52,173 nt of DNA, taken from Bacteroidota bacterium. GTDB lineage: Bacteria; Bacteroidota; Bacteroidia; Chitinophagales; LD1. Below, one piece after another: positions 3,091 through 30,744 of the stretch; the first letter of the stretch is position 1; every line of letters starts with the position of its first letter. Location of the stretch: the NCBI GenBank assembly GCA_947461105.1, contig CANHIG010000003.1:1-52173 (forward strand), written 5' to 3'. A program made the translations under genes and the position numbers. The notes beneath the pieces are model-generated. The model did not search any database, was not told the origin of the DNA, and worked only from the letters and a program-made list of their open reading frames with translations.

Positions 3091-3789
3091 TCAGCATATC
3101 AGCAACAACCTTTTCTGTCCGGTTTTTTCTTTTGGTGCACGGTGCACACATGGAAGCACTTCGCTCTCAGGATGATCAACTGCTAATCGCCATAAGTTTC
3201 CAATGCCTAAGCTGACAGGTTGTGCAGTTGGTTTTGCATTATAGTGTAGGTCAAAGAAATGTTCACTCAAAAATGATTCAAAACCTTCATCCGCTCCGTG
3301 ATATAATTTTTTGAGCTCAGCCCGAATTTCGGGAACAAGCACTTTTTGTATGGCTTCTGAACTAGGCAATATTTCACTCGACTCGCCATAGTAAGTACAT
3401 AAAAAAGTATCGGTTGGTACAGGAGAGCGATCCACATGAAAAGAATACACATCGGTTGGGAAAAACGGGTGGGCATCATCCCGCTCATAACACCTGATTA
3501 CATTCAGGATTGGAGATGCGCCATGCGCTTTCAATAGCTTCAGGTCTTGCAAAATAATTTCTCGGGCAAGCTGTCCCTGCTCACTTAATAGAAGAGAGAG
3601 AAGCTCATCCTCATAAATTTCTGCTATATTTTCGTTTAGTGCTATCTTGTTTACAATTTCAGAAAAATCACCTGTGAGTGTTCGGGTCCAGCAAATTGCA
3701 TTCATTGCTCCGCGAAAAGGAGTGGTAACAAGGTCTTGAAAATTAGAAACACAGTGAATTTGATGTTCAGTTTGAGATAAATCTGTCAT
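3091..3789 (-). CDS. DUF1826-like protein, putative 2OG-Fe(II) oxygenase fold
   Basis: A 232-residue soluble protein. It resembles what I remember of the DUF1826 family (FRGAMNAICWTRTLTGDF near residues 25-42), but I cannot confirm this without a search. Visible residues fit a 2-oxoglutarate/Fe(II) oxygenase-like double-stranded beta-helix: H118-x-D120 in SFHVDRSP, a distal H216 in CVHRAP, and R227 eleven residues further (KRLLL), the usual spacing for the residue that binds the 2OG carboxylate. Its first five codons and leader lie in a 24-bp sequence that is repeated at 6260-6283, beyond the GH31 gene. No partner gene is evident. The fold assignment is inference from motif order and spacing. 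Confidence 0.6.
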   Translation of the reverse strand: MTDLSQTEHQIHCVSNFQDLVTTPFRGAMNAICWTRTLTGDFSEIVNKIALNENIAEIYEDELLSLLLSEQGQLAREIILQDLKLLKAHGASPILNVIRCYERDDAHPFFPTDVYSFHVDRSPVPTDTFLCTYYGESSEILPSSEAIQKVLVPEIRAELKKLYHGADEGFESFLSEHFFDLHYNAKPTAQPVSLGIGNLWRLAVDHPESEVLPCVHRAPKEKTGQKRLLLIC

Positions 3790-3799
3790 AACAATTATT
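3776..3799. repeat. 24-bp direct repeat, left copy
   Basis: This sequence is identical over 24 bases to 6260-6283. It covers the start codon, codons 2-5 and ten leader bases of the minus-strand gene ending at 3789. Together the two copies bracket the GH31 region. Confidence 0.85.
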
Positions 3800-3851
3800 G
3801 ATAACGCCCGACCGTGAAAATACTATTCAAACCGGAATAACTGCTATTTTA

Positions 3852-3861
3852 AAGAGCCTGA
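3852..3861. repeat. 10-bp inverted repeat, left end of the GH31 segment
   Basis: AAGAGCCTGA here is the exact reverse complement of TCAGGCTCTT at 6195-6204. The pair flanks the GH31 gene, inside the 24-bp direct repeats. A nine-base word, GTCGTTATT, also follows this copy (3862-3870) and precedes the right copy (6179-6187). Confidence 0.6.
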
Positions 3862-3903
3862 GTCGTTATTGTATGTCTTGAAATTAAAACTTAATATTAT
3901 AGT

Positions 3904-6177
3904 ATGAAACAACTTTTAGCTATTGCTCTTCTTTTATTTTTTCGCAGCATATCTGCACAAGAGTATAACCCTGTAGCCCATGAAAAAGCAATAGTTATAA
4001 GCGGTAAAGCCCGCTTTACTGTTTTAACTGATGGTTTGATACGAATGGAATATTAGCCCGATTCCGTTTTTTGTAATCAGGCATCGCTAACTTTCGTGAA
4101 TAGAAACACACGCGTGCCTTCGTTCCAAGTGAAACATGAAAACGGAAAACTTATCATCACTACTTCGCTACTTACCTTAACTTATACTGAAAACAGCAGT
4201 GGGTTTACTTCTAAAAATCTGCGTATTGATTATAAAGATGCTGCCCGCAATTTTAGTTGGAAGCCGGGAGTGAAAGACCACAAAAATCTGAAAGGCACTA
4301 CGCGCACGCTTGATGGAGTGAGTGGCACGTTTAGTTATCAAACCATGAAAAAGATAAAACTGGAAGATGGAATTATTTCGCGCAGCGGCTGGGCTTTAGT
4401 GGATGATTCTGAAAAACCATTGTTTGATAACAGCGAATGGCAATGGGTAGAAGCGCGTAAAAATACTGGGCAGGATTTTTATTTTTTCGGTTACGGAAAC
4501 AACTACAAAAAAGCATTGTTTGATTTTACGCAAGTAGCAGGTAAAATTTCGCTGCCACCTAAATACACCTTCGGTGTTTGGTATTCACGTTACTGGAATT
4601 ACACCGAAGCAGAAATGAAAGACATTGTAAATGGCTACGAGAAAAACGATTTGCCGCTCGATGTACTGGTAGTGGATATGGATTGGCACATCACCGAAAA
4701 ATCTAGCCCGGAAATTTTCAGCCATGCAAATCCAAAACCCAATGGCTGGACAGGTTTTACCTGGGAGAAGAAATATTTTCCCGATTACAAAGGGTTTTTG
4801 AAATGGACAGATGAGAACCACTTGCAAACATGTTTAAACCTTCATCCCGCTGAAGGCGTGCAGGCACATGAAGCTGCTTATGATACTTTTGCAAAAGCCA
4901 TGAATGCTGATACTTCAAAGCACGCTGCCATTCCTTTCGACATTACGAACAAAAAATTTGCAAATAATTATTTCGATGTGTTGCTGCATCCTTATGAAAA
5001 AGCGGGTGTAGATTTCTGGTGGCTGGACTGGCAGCAGTGGGGCGGCACCAACATCAAAGGTGTGAACCCTACTTTCTATTTAAACTATGTGCACTATAGC
5101 GATATGCAGCGGCAAGGCAAGCGTCCGCTTATTTTCCACAGATGGGGCGGCTTGGGTAATCATCGTTATCAAATTGGTTTCAGTGGCGATTACTTTATTA
5201 ATTGGAAAGGCCTCTCGTATCAACCGGAGTTTACTTCAACGGCTGCCAATGTTGGTTTTGGATTCTGGAGCCATGACATTGGAGCGCACATGGGCGCATC
5301 GAAAAAAAATAAGCAAGATGCCGAGCTGTATACGCGCTGGGTACAATGGGGCGCGTTCAGTCCCATCTTCCGCACACATGCCACTAACGATAAAGAAATT
5401 GAAAGACGCATGTGGCTGTATCCGAAAGAAAATTTGGATGCCATGCGAAACGCTTTACAGTTGCGCTACTCGCTTATTCCGTATATCTATACTTATTCGC
5501 GTATGGCGTATGACAGTGGCGTGTCGCTCATTCGCCCTATGTATTATGAATATCCTGACAATGAAAAAGCATACAACGTTCCGCATCAATATTATTTTGG
5601 CAGCAATATGATTGCCGCACCGGTTCACCAAAGCATGAATGGAAATACCACAGCAACACAAACTGTTTGGCTGCCTGAAGGCAACTGGTATGATTACACT
5701 ACACAAGAATTAATAAAAGGCGGAAGAAATTTCACCGCCACATATTCCTTGAATCAAATTCCGTTGTTTGTAAAAGAAGGAAGCATCATACCCTCGCAAA
5801 CAAAAAAGCACCGCATTACCGGCAGCGTTATAGATACACTTACGCTCACCGTTTATGCTGACACCTCTGCCGAATTTAACTTATATGAAGACGATGGAAC
5901 CACAGAAGGATACAAAAGCAATGAATTTTCCTTTACTGCTTTCAGGTATACCAAAAATTTGACAGGAGCTGCGTTTACTATTCAACCGGATGGCAAACAA
6001 TACAGCGGCATGATTACCGAAAGATGCTACGAAATAAATTTGCCGTATGGCACAAAACCAAATTCAGTTACCAGCAACGGAGCAAATACAAATTGGAATT
6101 ATGATGAAGTGACAAAGCAACTCAATGTTCATTTAGCTAAAGACAAAATGGAACAAATCACTGTTCAAATAAACTGA
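3904..6177 (+). pseudogene. GH31 alpha-glucosidase/alpha-xylosidase-type gene interrupted by an in-frame TAG
   Basis: The ATG at 3904 opens a signal peptide (MKQLLAIALLLFFRSISAQE) and a GH31 N-terminal sequence ending in TDGLIRMEY. TAG at 4054-4056 then stops it. The same frame continues without a shift (PDSVFCNQASLTFVNRN) to 6177, about 757 codons, the usual size for the family. GH31 enzymes are retaining exo-glycosidases for alpha-linked glucose or xylose. The catalytic domain looks intact: nucleophile Asp in WWLDWQQWGG (full-length residue 375, codon at 5026) and acid/base Asp in FWSHDIGAH (residue 458, codon at 5275). A DUF5110-like C-terminal beta domain contains NLYEDDG. A GTG at 4096 could start a 693-residue form, but that lacks the signal peptide and part of the N-terminal sandwich. 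The TAG may be a recent null mutation or a sequence error; no pyrrolysine genes are in the window. Confidence 0.8.
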
Positions 6178-26510: not shown

Positions 26511-27119
26511 ATGATTGTATCCAACCTCTATTATCTGCCGCAAATCAGCTGGTTTAAAGAAGTGATTCATGAACATGAAATCACACTGGAACAGCATGAC
26601 AACTGGCAGAAATCTTCTTTCAGAAATAAAACGGTAATTGCAGGAGCAAACGAATTGCAAACATTAAGCATTCCCATAATTGGCGGAAGAGAACAGAAAA
26701 CAACATACAAAGACATAAGAATTTGCTATACCGACCGGTGGCAGCAAGTTCACCTTACAGCAATAAAATCAGCCTACAGCAGCGCTCCGTTTTTTGAGCA
26801 TTACGTAGATTACTTCAGTCCGTTTTACGAAAAGAAAACGGAATTTCTTTTTGATTATAATTTCGAATTGTTGCAACTGTGTTTCAAACTGCTGAAAACT
26901 GAAAGGAAAATATTGCGAACAGATGATTATAAAAAAGAAATTCCTGATGCTTTAGACATCAGGAATTCATATAATACGAAGAAAGAAATTTTCAAACCGA
27001 GCAAATCTTACATTCAGGTTTTTAGTGAGCGGCAAGGCTTTCAGCCGAATGTTTCAGTAATTGATTTACTATTCAATGAAGGACCGGAAACTGTTAAGTA
27101 CATCATGGATTTAAAGTGA
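26511..27119 (+). CDS. WbqC-like family protein
   Basis: A 202-residue protein when started at ATG 26511. An upstream start at 26469 is open but adds a poor N-terminus, and WbqC proteins usually begin a few residues before the YLPPISWF-type motif, here NLYYLPQISWFKEVI. Other family features are NWQKSSFRNKTVIAGANE, LSIPIIGG, DRWQQVHLTAIKSAYSSAPFFEHYVDYF and the closing VSVIDLLFNEGPE. WbqC-like proteins are found in O-antigen or sugar-modification clusters, but their activity is not established. No sugar genes are adjacent here. Its last 17 bases overlap, in antisense, the end of the small lipoprotein gene at 27103. Confidence 0.82.
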   Translation: MIVSNLYYLPQISWFKEVIHEHEITLEQHDNWQKSSFRNKTVIAGANELQTLSIPIIGGREQKTTYKDIRICYTDRWQQVHLTAIKSAYSSAPFFEHYVDYFSPFYEKKTEFLFDYNFELLQLCFKLLKTERKILRTDDYKKEIPDALDIRNSYNTKKEIFKPSKSYIQVFSERQGFQPNVSVIDLLFNEGPETVKYIMDLK

Positions 27120-27507
27120 TATTAACTTCCTTATTTGTAACATTTCCATCATGGTCTTCAAACTGAATAACAGCTTTCACGGGTGTAGCTTGAGTAACAG
27201 TCACTTGCAATTTTTCATTATAATCGTATGATTTAATCGAATGAACGTAGAGTGTTTTTGCGACCAATAAATACCCATCAGAATTTCGCGTAATCGAGAT
27301 TCGTCCAGTATGTAAATCTTCATTATCACTGGCATTTCCTGAGAATAAAATTGAATCCGTTGTACTAAAAACCGCTCCTTCAGCTGGAGACACAACAGTA
27401 ACAACAGGAGCCACTTTGGAGCTATCGGAATCAGTTGGCTTTTTACATGCATTGATAACAAAAAACCCAGTAATTAATACAACAACAAAGAGGTTTCTAC
27501 TATTCAT
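27103..27507 (-). CDS. Small lipoprotein with Ig-like domain (possibly DUF4625-like)
   Basis: A 134-residue lipoprotein: the signal peptide ends in VINAC, with the lipidated Cys at 21, followed by a Ser/Asp-rich spacer. The rest (about 32-134) reads as one beta-sandwich (PVVTVVSPAEGAVFSTTDSI, FSGNASDNEDLHTGRISITR, VKAVIQFEDHDGNVTNKEVNI), like Bacteroidota Ig-like lipoproteins of the DUF4625 sort. That family name is a guess from pattern. It is the last gene of the MbnP/MbnH-like run, ten bases after the peroxidase gene. An attached surface or periplasmic accessory role is likely. Confidence 0.7.
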   Translation of the reverse strand: MNSRNLFVVVLITGFFVINACKKPTDSDSSKVAPVVTVVSPAEGAVFSTTDSILFSGNASDNEDLHTGRISITRNSDGYLLVAKTLYVHSIKSYDYNEKLQVTVTQATPVKAVIQFEDHDGNVTNKEVNITLNP

Positions 27508-27517
27508 AATTCAAATT

Positions 27518-28537
27518 TTAGAACTCAGCGAATAAAGGGTTTTTAATAAAGTCTTCATCAGAAAGTGTCTTTAAAAATAATATCAATTTCGATTTTTCAT
27601 CATTAGTAATTGTAATACCTGTATTTCCATTCTGCTGAAGAATCGTATCTAAAGTAGCCGATGGCTGAACACCAAGACGATAATGGTCTATCACTTCTTC
27701 CAACGAAAAGAATCTGCCATCGTGCATATAAGGAGCTGTATAGCCAACATTTCGCAGACTTGGCACTTTGAATTTGTATTCATCCGTAGCACTTAATGTT
27801 ATTACATATCTGCCCTTATCTGAATTTTGAGCCAATCCGTTATTCCTGAAATTTTGATCGGTAAACAAAACACCGGAATGACAAGAAGAACACTTCTGTT
27901 CAAAAATTTGTTTCCCTTCATTTTCATCGGCAGAAAAAGTTGCAGTACCGGCTATCACTTTATCATATTTTGAATTTGCAGAAACTAACATCACCATAAA
28001 CTGCGACATGGCTTGCATCATTTTTATCCCTGTAATGTCATCAGATCCAAAAGCATCCTTAAAAAGTTTTTTGTAATTGGAATCAGAACCGATTTTAGCC
28101 ACGACATTAGAAACCGTTTCATCCATTTCTACAGGGTTTTGAATTGGACTTATCGGAACTAAGTCAAGATTATGCACCCCACCATCCCAAAAGTAATTTT
28201 GCATCCATGCCATATTTTGAATTGCTGGCGCATTGCGTGTGCCCAACTTATCTTCAATTCCATGACTAACAACATGCCCGTGATGGGTAAATGCCGAAAA
28301 TGAAATATGGCAACTGCCGCAAGAGATAGTGCCATCCCGGGATAACCGCCCATCGTAAAAAAGTTTTTTACCTAACTCAAAACCTGCTTTTGTGACCGGA
28401 TTAGTTTGAGTTGGATAAGTTGGAGCAGGAAATCCCTGAGGGACTTCAAAGCCCTTAAATACCTCATTGCCGGGAGCCTCTTTGTTACAAGAAGCTACCA
28501 GCAATAAGGCAAATAAAAACAAGAAATACTTGTTCAT
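27518..28537 (-). CDS. Di-heme cytochrome c peroxidase of the MauG/MbnH group, lipoprotein
   Basis: A 339-residue lipoprotein if started at 28537; an upstream in-frame ATG at 28558 overlaps the preceding gene and would place residues before the signal. The signal MNKYFLFLFALLLVASC puts the lipidated Cys at 17. Two c-type heme sites are CGSCH (73-77) and CSSCH (216-220). FWDGG (W117) is the tryptophan between the hemes conserved in the superfamily, and APYMHDGRFFSLEEVIDHY is the usual C-terminal signature. Bacterial di-heme peroxidases reduce H2O2, but MauG and MbnH use the same core to oxidise a partner protein. The gene starts four bases after an MbnP-like gene, and this pairing favours an MbnH-like role. 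Confidence 0.88.
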   Translation of the reverse strand: MNKYFLFLFALLLVASCNKEAPGNEVFKGFEVPQGFPAPTYPTQTNPVTKAGFELGKKLFYDGRLSRDGTISCGSCHISFSAFTHHGHVVSHGIEDKLGTRNAPAIQNMAWMQNYFWDGGVHNLDLVPISPIQNPVEMDETVSNVVAKIGSDSNYKKLFKDAFGSDDITGIKMMQAMSQFMVMLVSANSKYDKVIAGTATFSADENEGKQIFEQKCSSCHSGVLFTDQNFRNNGLAQNSDKGRYVITLSATDEYKFKVPSLRNVGYTAPYMHDGRFFSLEEVIDHYRLGVQPSATLDTILQQNGNTGITITNDEKSKLILFLKTLSDEDFIKNPLFAEF

Positions 28538-28541
28538 AAAT

Positions 28542-29351
28542 TTAATCGTTGTGAACATGATTTACAGAAATCATGCTTGAATAGTTATTAGCAATATTTA
28601 CTGAATACGCATTGAACATCACCATTGGATTTGCAAAGAAATCAACATTTGTTATTCCGTTTAATACTTTCAGCGCATCTACATAAAGATGAGCCTCAGG
28701 ACCAGAAGTCTTAGCTTTACGTACTTCCGCATTTGTACCATTGAATGAAAGCGTAACATTTTTAATATTATTGATTGTAGGCGAGCTGTAACCTCCGTAT
28801 CCTCCGATGTGGTACATGAACATTTTCATAGTAGAAACGCTATCATACATTCCTTCCATTTTAAGGAAGATGTATCCTGAATTCCAAGACCAGTACATAT
28901 CCTGCCCTGCAGCAGTAGGATCTAATGCTCCGGTGCGCTCACTTACAGGAAGTGTGTTGCGATTGCTATCCACTCCGATAACAAAAGAAACTCCGCTATA
29001 ATTGCCCTCAGGAATATCACTTAATTCCACATCAGCCGTGGTTTCATCAGACTCCTCCACTAAGAAATAAGAATTATTTTGCGGTACTGTATATTTTGAA
29101 CCATCGCTATTAAGTAAAACTACATTGCTGATATAGTAGTTAAACTTAGAGATATTAAAGCTTTGCCCCAAAGCATTAGAGTATGTTCCAGTATTAAGAA
29201 CTAAATCATCAGCACCTGCTCTGTTGTCAAAGTGAAGCATCATTTTCCCTTTTTGTGATGGGTCATAATCCTTTTTAGTTTCCTTTTTGCAGGATTGTAG
29301 TGTTAAAGCTGATACAGCAAAAATTGCGAATACAAATTTTAAATTTTTCAT
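28542..29351 (-). CDS. MbnP-like (copper-associated) lipoprotein
   Basis: A 269-residue lipoprotein with signal ending in TLQSC (Cys 21). The chain carries the features I associate with the MbnP-like domain: LHFDNRAGADDLVLNTGTYSNALGQSFNISKFNYYIS-type opening (residues 39-75), IPEGNYSGVSFVIGVDSNRN (113-132) and MYWSWNSGYIFLKMEG (152-167) with W154 and W156. In the studied MbnP/MbnH pair, the di-heme enzyme oxidises a tryptophan of MbnP to kynurenine and MbnP binds copper. The MbnH-like gene follows directly. Whether the target tryptophan is W154 or W156 here cannot be said. Confidence 0.82.
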   Translation of the reverse strand: MKNLKFVFAIFAVSALTLQSCKKETKKDYDPSQKGKMMLHFDNRAGADDLVLNTGTYSNALGQSFNISKFNYYISNVVLLNSDGSKYTVPQNNSYFLVEESDETTADVELSDIPEGNYSGVSFVIGVDSNRNTLPVSERTGALDPTAAGQDMYWSWNSGYIFLKMEGMYDSVSTMKMFMYHIGGYGGYSSPTINNIKNVTLSFNGTNAEVRKAKTSGPEAHLYVDALKVLNGITNVDFFANPMVMFNAYSVNIANNYSSMISVNHVHND

Positions 29352-29369
29352 GTTTTATTGTCTTGTTTT

Positions 29370-30272
29370 TTAAAAGAAATAATTGAATTGAATTGATGAA
29401 AAGCTTGCCATATTCAAATGACTTTTGGCAAGTGATTGAAAAACAGGTTGACGAAACCGGATACCGATACCATACTTTTCTTTGATACGGACATCAAATG
29501 TAGCTTCTGCAGACAAAAGGTTGCCTCCGCTTAAAGAGATGGCAGCTTCACGGAATTTGTTTTTCTTAAAATAGTCATATATCAACGACACTGACGGAAT
29601 AAAACGATTGGTATTCACTTTCTTGTTATAGGCTGCTCTTAGCCACAATTGTGAGCGACCACCAATCTGTAAATTATCTTTGTTGGGTAAAGCATAACGA
29701 TAAAAAGCGCCTATTGATGCAGTAAATGCCTTTATACCAAACTGATATTCGATTTGTGGAATAAATTGCCAGGCCGCATTGCCAGGCTGTATTAAAGGAG
29801 AAAAGCCTGTGGTGTCAATACTTTTCTTGAATTCACCGGTTGGGAAGCAAGTATTGAATCCAAAATAAAACACATGAAAGGTGTTCTTATATTTAATCTT
29901 TGGGGTCATAGCAGAAACACCGATAATGATGTCTCCTAGTCCATTATAGGATAGATTTTCTGTGCCGGTTCGCTTGTTAAAAACAAAAGGCAACTCAGCT
30001 TGAACAGATACATATTTCTGCACATTCCATCTGCCTGAAAAAACAACAGATTGGAAAATATCTCTATAGTCAATCGTCATTTGCTCATTGATATATGAGG
30101 GCAAACGGAATTTATCACCTGTCACAGCATATCTAACCCCAAGTGATGATTTTAAGCCATTAATAAAATTGTCGGCACTCATCATGGAAGAACAACCAGA
30201 TGCAGAGCAACAACTCTGAGCTTCAGCTACTGACCAATCCAGTAAAGCCAAAGCAAAAAATACATTTTTCAC
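29370..30272 (-). CDS. Outer-membrane beta-barrel protein with Cys cluster
   Basis: A 300-residue exported protein. After a signal peptide cut near residue 19 come C21, C22 and C27 in SCCSASGCSSMM, a possible metal ligand set at the periplasmic N-terminus. The rest is amphipathic beta-strands with aromatic girdles (DYRDIFQSVVFSGRWNVQKY, FHVFYFGFNTCFPTGEF, QFIPQIEYQFGIKAF) and the chain ends in IQFNYFF, the C-terminal Phe typical of outer-membrane barrels. It resembles transporter-like barrels placed next to MbnP and di-heme peroxidase genes in other Bacteroidota. Spacing to MbnP is 18 bases. Confidence 0.78.
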   Translation of the reverse strand: MKNVFFALALLDWSVAEAQSCCSASGCSSMMSADNFINGLKSSLGVRYAVTGDKFRLPSYINEQMTIDYRDIFQSVVFSGRWNVQKYVSVQAELPFVFNKRTGTENLSYNGLGDIIIGVSAMTPKIKYKNTFHVFYFGFNTCFPTGEFKKSIDTTGFSPLIQPGNAAWQFIPQIEYQFGIKAFTASIGAFYRYALPNKDNLQIGGRSQLWLRAAYNKKVNTNRFIPSVSLIYDYFKKNKFREAAISLSGGNLLSAEATFDVRIKEKYGIGIRFRQPVFQSLAKSHLNMASFSSIQFNYFF

Positions 30273-30316
30273 TTTTGATTTTTAAATTATAAAACAAGTA
30301 TGGTCTTGAGTTATAA

Positions 30317-30697
30317 TTATGCGCAAGGCGGATGAGAAACTTCTGCTATGTACGAATGCAAATACATCGCATTTCGCTGCGAAGAAAAAGGAATTTGAAC
30401 TTCTGAAATTGAAACGTCCATTTTTAAATAGGCATTGTCATTCTGACACCATACAAAGTCTTCAAATATTGAAATTGATTCCCGCTGTGGCTCAGACTTA
30501 TTTTCAGAATTGACTTGCGCCAATTCCTTTTTCAAATAACACTTACCGTTACATTTTTTGGCTGGTGCATTTTTATTTACACAAAGTGTTTGTGCAATCG
30601 CTTTTTGATTGATAAAAAAGGCTGTAACCAGAAAAGCCTTGCCTATAGAGGCTATAAGCACAATTGTAACCACAAAGTATATTAACGCCTTTTTCAC
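30317..30697 (-). CDS. Small membrane protein with CxnCxxxC motif, head of the MbnP operon
   Basis: A 126-residue protein with an N-terminal hydrophobic helix (about 5-29) and then a conserved-looking cysteine segment, LCVNKNAPAKKCNGKCYLKKEL (C39, C49, C53). C84 and a terminal HPPCA add two more cysteines. I do not know a named family. A similar Cys/Lys segment appears, as I recall, in small proteins beside metal-related TonB systems in Bacteroidota. It lies 44 bases upstream of the barrel gene. A 14-bp dyad at 30731-30744 lies just upstream of its start. Metal binding or sensing is a reasonable but unproven guess. Confidence 0.65.
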   Translation of the reverse strand: MKKALIYFVVTIVLIASIGKAFLVTAFFINQKAIAQTLCVNKNAPAKKCNGKCYLKKELAQVNSENKSEPQRESISIFEDFVWCQNDNAYLKMDVSISEVQIPFSSQRNAMYLHSYIAEVSHPPCA

Positions 30698-30730: not shown

Positions 30731-30744
30731 ATGACTTGAGTCAT
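30731..30744. promoter_or_regulatory. 14-bp dyad upstream of the small Cys protein
   Basis: ATGACT-TG-AGTCAT is a perfect six-base inverted repeat in the 54-base gap between the DUF5689 gene and the small Cys protein gene, 34 bases from the latter's start. It has the size of a dimeric repressor or activator site. No canonical promoter is evident here except a weak TACCTTGG further in. Confidence 0.5.

Follow-up and report, generated by a model that had tools for sequence, protein, structure and literature searches.

We describe a run of five minus-strand genes (30697 to 27103) in a 52,173-nucleotide stretch of DNA (contig CANHIG010000003.1, assembly GCA_947461105.1; hereafter the window) from a bacterium of the phylum Bacteroidota, and we consider it likely that these genes form an outer-envelope operon for copper acquisition or copper handling, made up of a leader open reading frame (ORF), a tryptophan-modifying pair of proteins, a channel, and a lipoprotein with three conserved histidines. 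The pair consists of an MbnP-family lipoprotein (gene 3) and a di-heme MbnH/MauG-like enzyme (gene 4), and the heme enzyme very probably remodels one Trp of the lipoprotein, which is predicted to hold copper. Gene 1, at the head of the set, resembles a switch that senses copper more than it does a functional component. An earlier note on this DNA had read the locus as MbnP/MbnH chemistry with the first two proteins as metal-handling partners; the reading of the chemistry stands, while the role given to gene 1 is replaced here by a leader-ORF model. The features, all on the minus strand, are as follows.

30317..30697, minus strand: gene 1, 126 amino acids (aa), predicted copper-sensing leader ORF with CruR/CutF-like anatomy
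30521..30586, minus strand: gene 1 Cys motif LCVNKNAPAKKCNGKCYL with C39, C49 and C53, following the N-terminal hydrophobic segment
30320..30334, minus strand: C-terminal HPPCA of gene 1, with Pro-Pro near the stop
30273..30316, minus strand: gap of 44 bases from gene 1 to the barrel gene
29370..30272, minus strand: gene 2, 300 aa, 12-stranded COG4313-type outer-membrane barrel
30192-30212, minus strand: CCSASGC of the barrel, residues 21-27, directly after the signal sequence
28542..29351, minus strand: gene 3, 269 aa, MbnP-family lipoprotein, lipid Cys C21
28884-28892, minus strand: W154-S-W156 of MbnP
28890..28892, minus strand: Trp154 codon, predicted site of Trp-to-kynurenine oxidation and copper ligation
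28809-28811, minus strand: H181 of MbnP
27518..28537, minus strand: gene 4, di-heme c-type MbnH/MauG-like lipoprotein
28307-28321 and 27878-27892, minus strand: heme motifs CGSCH and CSSCH of gene 4
27680-27682, minus strand: axial Tyr of EEVIDHY in gene 4
27103..27507, minus strand: gene 5, 134 aa, immunoglobulin (Ig)-like lipoprotein (Big_7; weak DUF4625) with conserved H66, H89 and H119

The MbnP-family lipoprotein and its di-heme enzyme

With 182.7 bits against the Pfam MbnP family PF20243 (cut-off 27, E 9e-54) for gene 3 and 180 bits against CCP_MauG (cut-off 25.6, E 6e-53) for gene 4, the reading of the locus is not due to chance. Because the four Cys of the methanotroph family TIGR04052 are absent from gene 3, whose sole Cys is the lipid Cys C21, we regard it as a member of the MbnP family and not as a TIGR04052 equivalog, against which it scores 56 bits, under the equivalog cut-off of 140. 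An AlphaFold2 model made from 69 relatives (predicted local distance difference test, pLDDT, 93) matches the solved MbnP structure 7l6g with a Z-score of 18.0 and a root-mean-square deviation (rmsd) of 3.2 over 218 residues; the next match has Z 4.1, and MopE and CorA are not among the best fold matches listed. The MbnP-like fold that the earlier note had proposed for this product is thus found both by profile search and in the predicted structure. Profile alignment with 7l6g places the first Trp of the WxW motif at W154 and the His of YHIGG at H181. The MbnP of methanotrophs reportedly binds copper, and MbnH is said to be a MauG-like di-heme enzyme that oxidises a Trp of it; in M. trichosporium the residue oxidised to kynurenine is reportedly the first Trp of WxW. 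No natural fusion of MbnP and enzyme was present among the ORFs screened.

The structure nearest to gene 4 is MbnH (6e1c), with classical cytochrome c peroxidases (CCPs) coming next, and its best NCBIfam model is TIGR04039 (223.9 bits, under the cut-off of 362.85). It carries two CXXCH motifs (residues 80-84 and 223-227, numbered on the longest ORF), and Tyr293 in the same numbering aligns with the Tyr of 6e1c and with the axial Met of CCPs; MauG likewise has Tyr at the corresponding heme. The column of the CCP distal His holds Ile. Gene 4 therefore has neither the axial Met nor the distal His of classical bacterial CCPs, from which the earlier note had expected it to stand apart. The same pattern extends over 174 MbnP-linked enzymes: in 167 of them the axial residue is Tyr, and the most frequent residues at their distal-His column do not include His.

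If the enzyme acts on Trp154, the two should be kept or lost together, and this was assessed in MbnP neighbourhoods sampled from the window's family, order and phylum and in 80 loci reached via gene 1, which were therefore not selected for Trp. After removal of near copies the sample held 212 MbnPs, with an enzyme counted as a partner if adjacent or up to 1.5 kb downstream. Trp154 was present in 180 of the 183 MbnPs with a di-heme partner and in 7 of the 29 without one (Fisher p 7e-21, a statistic weakened by relatedness); the Trp-less proportion is no census, because a Trp-less profile was used to find part of the sample. Only 83% of enzyme-linked copies retained the second Trp of WxW. H181 was kept in 95% of enzyme-linked copies versus 35% of the Trp-less set, and fold residues such as G126 and Y160 were retained in that set. 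This comparison supports MbnP/MbnH chemistry at the predicted site. The fold, the residues that ligate heme, and the way Trp154 follows the enzyme all agree with the lipoprotein version of that chemistry in Bacteroidota first suggested in the earlier note.

Several arrangements of MbnP genes depart from the simple pair. Two loci have tandem MbnPs (L312:3153-3929 and L324:4668-5426), the first lacking Trp154 and the second, enzyme-adjacent, retaining it. In five others (L378-L381 and L384), two or three tandem MbnPs are followed by two di-heme enzymes, and these arrays sit behind gene 1 and the barrel gene where the contig extends that far. A further five loci (L107, L120, L121, L122, and L124) have the order gene 1, barrel, Ig-like lipoprotein and MbnP, are enzyme-less and have lost the Trp; after MbnP they encode a lipoprotein of 126-127 aa with CAISGCH and a weak PSCyt1 match, as if a mini-cytochrome had taken the place of the di-heme enzyme.

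Gene 1 and its family

Gene 1 matches no Pfam family above cut-off, PF11162 included. Inspection of the sequence reveals an N-terminal hydrophobic segment, and its family keeps the pattern Cys-x9-Cys-x3-Cys, with C39, N41, C49, G51, C53, and L55 invariant in a 24-member alignment. Pro-Pro occurs within the last 18 residues in 191 of 193 members, mostly 2-4 residues before the stop, and within the last 8 residues in 90% of the family versus 3% of other small ORFs. The last Cys and Pro-Pro stand 67 residues apart (quartiles 66-69; mostly 65-70), and the stretch between them holds ∼0.5 bit per position over most of its length. The next gene is co-oriented for every distinct copy (179/179). Behind gene 1 the median gap is 96 nucleotides, versus 7 after MbnP or CCP genes; these gaps have a stronger tendency to fold than intergenic gaps elsewhere (mean z -2.2 vs -0.85, p 2e-9), and C exceeds G in the 3' part of gene 1 family-wide. 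At one locus (L156) a perfect hairpin of 10 bp comes directly behind gene 1, in the gap, with a T run after it; this looks more like an intrinsic attenuator than a Rho site.

Members of this family were present in 98 of 247 genomes of the phylum, and in 36 of 65 MbnP-bearing genomes of a phylum sample one lies no more than 4 kb from MbnP (40 pairs vs 0.18 expected). Of 75 neighbour proteins scanned from gene 1 operons without MbnP, 25-26 matched TonB receptor domains, 11 YtkA, 8 PepSY_TM, and 5 SCO1/SenC. Three of the linked receptors were examined; for two of them the top-scoring model, though under its cut-off, was TIGR01778, a copper receptor model, and for the third PqqU or siderophore models; YHS, SCO1, YtkA, and TIGR01778-like receptors recur near gene 1 or MbnP. 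The barrel and Ig-like pair stands behind gene 1 without MbnP at 10 loci. Gene 1 also heads operons with Cys-His (heme-like) lipoproteins or with proteins of ∼800 aa followed by Cys-His lipoproteins (L139 and L140; L130, L135 and L138).

Two characterized leaders have a comparable anatomy. CruR, a DUF2946 protein, has CXXC, RAPP three residues from its end, and a fixed spacing between them, and it is first in operons with TonB-dependent transporter, PepSY_TM, SCO, and MbnPH-like genes (PMC9426467). CutF of Rhodobacter capsulatus, which activates a multicopper oxidase, has CxxxC, a proline-rich end, and a structured gap (PMC9973294). With the CruR of Bordetella pertussis gene 1 shares small size, putative export, a Cys motif, Pro-Pro near the C-terminus, fixed spacing, and, in its family, a position at the head of operons with such genes; the two differ in motif (CXXC in CruR, CxxxC in gene 1) and in spacing (45 vs ∼67). 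The likeness to CutF and CutF-like proteins extends to CxxxC, a putative N-terminal signal, a length under 150 aa, PP in the last 15 residues, and, at the level of the family, a short structured gap. CutF-like proteins were collected as those of <150 aa, with PP in the last 15 residues and a co-oriented gene no more than 1 kb downstream (PMC9973294), a description that covers gene 1 (126 aa, HPPCA end, 44-base gap). Because many Bacteroidota proteins are on the list of the CutF authors (PMC9973294), the gene 1 family may be among the clusters of that study.

In several Bacteroidota genomes (loci L319/L394, L397, L300, L309, and L316), a DUF2946-type or R(G/D)PP-ending leader occupies the slot of gene 1, directly before MbnP and the CCP gene. 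A small Cys-rich ORF ending in TPPKIG lies directly upstream of MbnP (3714-4670) at L305 and may be a third type of leader. In build and placement the family of gene 1 corresponds to a copper-sensing leader ORF, and the role of metal-handling partner proposed in the earlier note is not supported.

The barrel and the Ig-like lipoprotein

The model of gene 2 has a pLDDT of 84, with low values in the tail; it matches 4rl8, a COG4313 channel, with Z 26.2 and rmsd 2.3 over 245 residues at 13% identity, and FapF with Z 24.3. It shares the barrel fold of 4rl8 and differs from it by a Cys-rich N-terminal tail, which in its relatives follows the signal and typically reads CDxCGC or CCC; at least two Cys lie within residues 11-45 in 79 of 82 relatives. 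The earlier label of metal-handling partner is better replaced, for this protein, by COG4313-type channel with a Cys-rich N-terminal tail. In the family of gene 5, H66, H89, and H119 are each kept in 83-87% of 30 members.

Discussion

From anatomy and position we propose that, as the ribosome slows at the terminal Pro-Pro, the nascent chain of gene 1 would present a copper sensor made of Cys residues at the membrane, and that this pausing would gate expression of the downstream genes. We infer that 65-70 residues approximate a nascent chain spanning the ribosome tunnel and the translocon, so that pausing of the ribosome at Pro-Pro would place the Cys motif on the periplasmic side. The lipid-anchored gene 4 product would then oxidise Trp154 of MbnP to kynurenine, as its coupling to the enzyme across genomes suggests, and kynurenine-154 would form a Cu(I) site together with His181 and, probably, one more ligand in the region of Met245. 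The COG4313-type channel and the three-His lipoprotein would both probably pass or bind copper. We also lean, less firmly, towards the broader view that a second, sequence-unrelated class of copper-sensing nascent-chain leader is widespread in Bacteroidota and directly gates operons for kynurenine copper sites, so that the copper lipoprotein and its modifying enzyme would alike depend on copper status. In the same view, MbnPs losing their enzyme also give up the modifiable Trp and, in most cases, the His, and become a different binding protein.

Both halves of this proposal carry known systems over to a variant in Bacteroidota that is distinct in sequence. The MbnP/MbnH pair of Methylosinus trichosporium OB3b (7l6g, 6e1c) shares with ours the MbnP fold, the WxW motif, the downstream His, and an adjacent MauG-like di-heme enzyme with axial Tyr. 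In contrast to that pair, the present proteins are lipoproteins, lack the four-Cys motif, and fall below the cut-offs of TIGR04052 and TIGR04039 (‘metallo-mystery pair’), the window has no methanobactin genes, and the operon includes a leader ORF, a barrel, and an Ig-like lipoprotein. Pairing of MbnP with MbnH is known to extend far beyond methanobactin producers (PMC3621798). CorA, a surface protein, holds Cu(I) by kynurenine and two His, and the co-transcribed CorB is a di-heme CCP-like protein (PMC3912023); CorA/CorB and MopE/SACCP of methanotrophs thus offer a parallel kynurenine copper site with a di-heme partner, although their sequences differ from this MbnP.

Several results weigh against the proposal. 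Three enzyme-linked MbnPs lack Trp154, and 7 copies without a nearby enzyme retain it. On the tree Trp changes ∼9 times and the enzyme ∼10 times, giving ∼4 independent contrasts in the predicted direction and 0 opposed (median p 0.125-0.25), and with only ∼4 of them such a test cannot reach 0.05. Both the kynurenine and the copper at this MbnP we infer from comparison. In the window itself the gap between gene 1 and the barrel has an RNA structure z of -0.63, which is not significant, and gene 1 has no excess of C over G. A co-oriented gene lies <100 bp upstream of 73 of 177 gene 1 copies, so not every copy clearly heads an operon. The gene 1 profile showed no homology to DUF2946 (hhalign probability 1.1%); gene 1 was accordingly rejected as a DUF2946 homologue, and we liken it to CruR and CutF in its working without calling it a DUF2946 member.

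Gene 1 might instead be a small, stable protein of the membrane, a copper chaperone or thiol partner delivering copper to MbnP or the barrel, with an incidental Pro-Pro, as its invariant Cys motif right behind a hydrophobic segment and its copper-type neighbours would allow. We consider this rather unlikely because a working chaperone needs neither a stretch of ∼67 residues unconserved in sequence yet fixed in length, nor a PP that most copies place 2-4 residues ahead of the stop when the background is 3%, nor a place before many unrelated cargo genes, nor replacement by DUF2946-type leaders. Equally, the site derived from Trp in MbnP might serve iron, heme, or radical chemistry, or another metal or redox role, and not copper storage or uptake. 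Gene 1 also heads siderophore-type and PepSY_TM TonB operons, and Ni/Co CutF-like leaders have been proposed; however, SCO1, YtkA, YHS, and TIGR01778-like receptors recur near gene 1 and MbnP, and the characterized relatives with a kynurenine site, MopE and CorA (and reportedly MbnP), bind copper, so we regard such a role as unlikely. That gene 4 is an ordinary H2O2-reducing CCP guarding the envelope, with MbnP a bystander, appears improbable: its membership in the CCP_MauG superfamily and the rank of classical CCPs as its nearest solved structures after MbnH are offset by Tyr in place of the axial Met and Ile in place of the distal His, by the near-universal adjacency of MbnP and enzyme, and by the finding that no residue follows the enzyme as closely as the first Trp of WxW, reportedly the one oxidised in the known MbnP.

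The known cases of copper ligation by protein-bound kynurenine are a few methanotroph proteins. MbnP-family members, usually with a MauG-like enzyme, occur in 169 of 198 sampled genomes of one environmental Bacteroidota order. Because one predicted residue tracks the enzyme over >200 proteins, the chemistry can be tested in cultivable bacteria such as Pedobacter. A leader role would give a formerly roleless Cys protein a concrete, falsifiable function and, if true, would account for the way copper controls many TonB, SCO1, and MbnP operons of the Bacteroidota, a phylum for whose copper regulation a limited literature search found little.

Operon layout and surroundings

The arrangement of the five genes is as first described, with gaps of 44, 18, 4, and 10 bases, and C39/C49/C53, the barrel CCSASGC, the lipoprotein Cys of products 3, 4 and 5, the two CXXCH motifs, and W154/W156 are all present. 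A gap of 4 bases results only if the di-heme gene starts from the internal ATG at 28537; its longest ORF starts at 28558 and overlaps the MbnP gene by 17 bases. The five genes do co-occur elsewhere, as anticipated, but the complete set in this order is found only in a few relatives of the same order, and the more broadly conserved core is leader, MbnP, and MbnH, often with the barrel.

Sigma-70-like promoters were in no excess over shuffles, and Bacteroidota promoters differ from that type. A perfect palindrome, ATGACTcaAGTCAT (30731-30744, ∼34 bases upstream of gene 1), was considered as an operator and rejected because its frequency in the genome is no higher than that of a reversed control and because it does not occur upstream of gene 1 at L068. 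Upstream on the same strand are genes for a DUF5689 lipoprotein and a TonB-type receptor, and downstream on the opposite strand is a WbqC-family gene. The same genome (G000) holds two more pairs of MbnP and CCP genes, on contigs C103 (L062) and C158 (L063); one of these MbnPs has WVW and the other the first Trp only (MYWGA).

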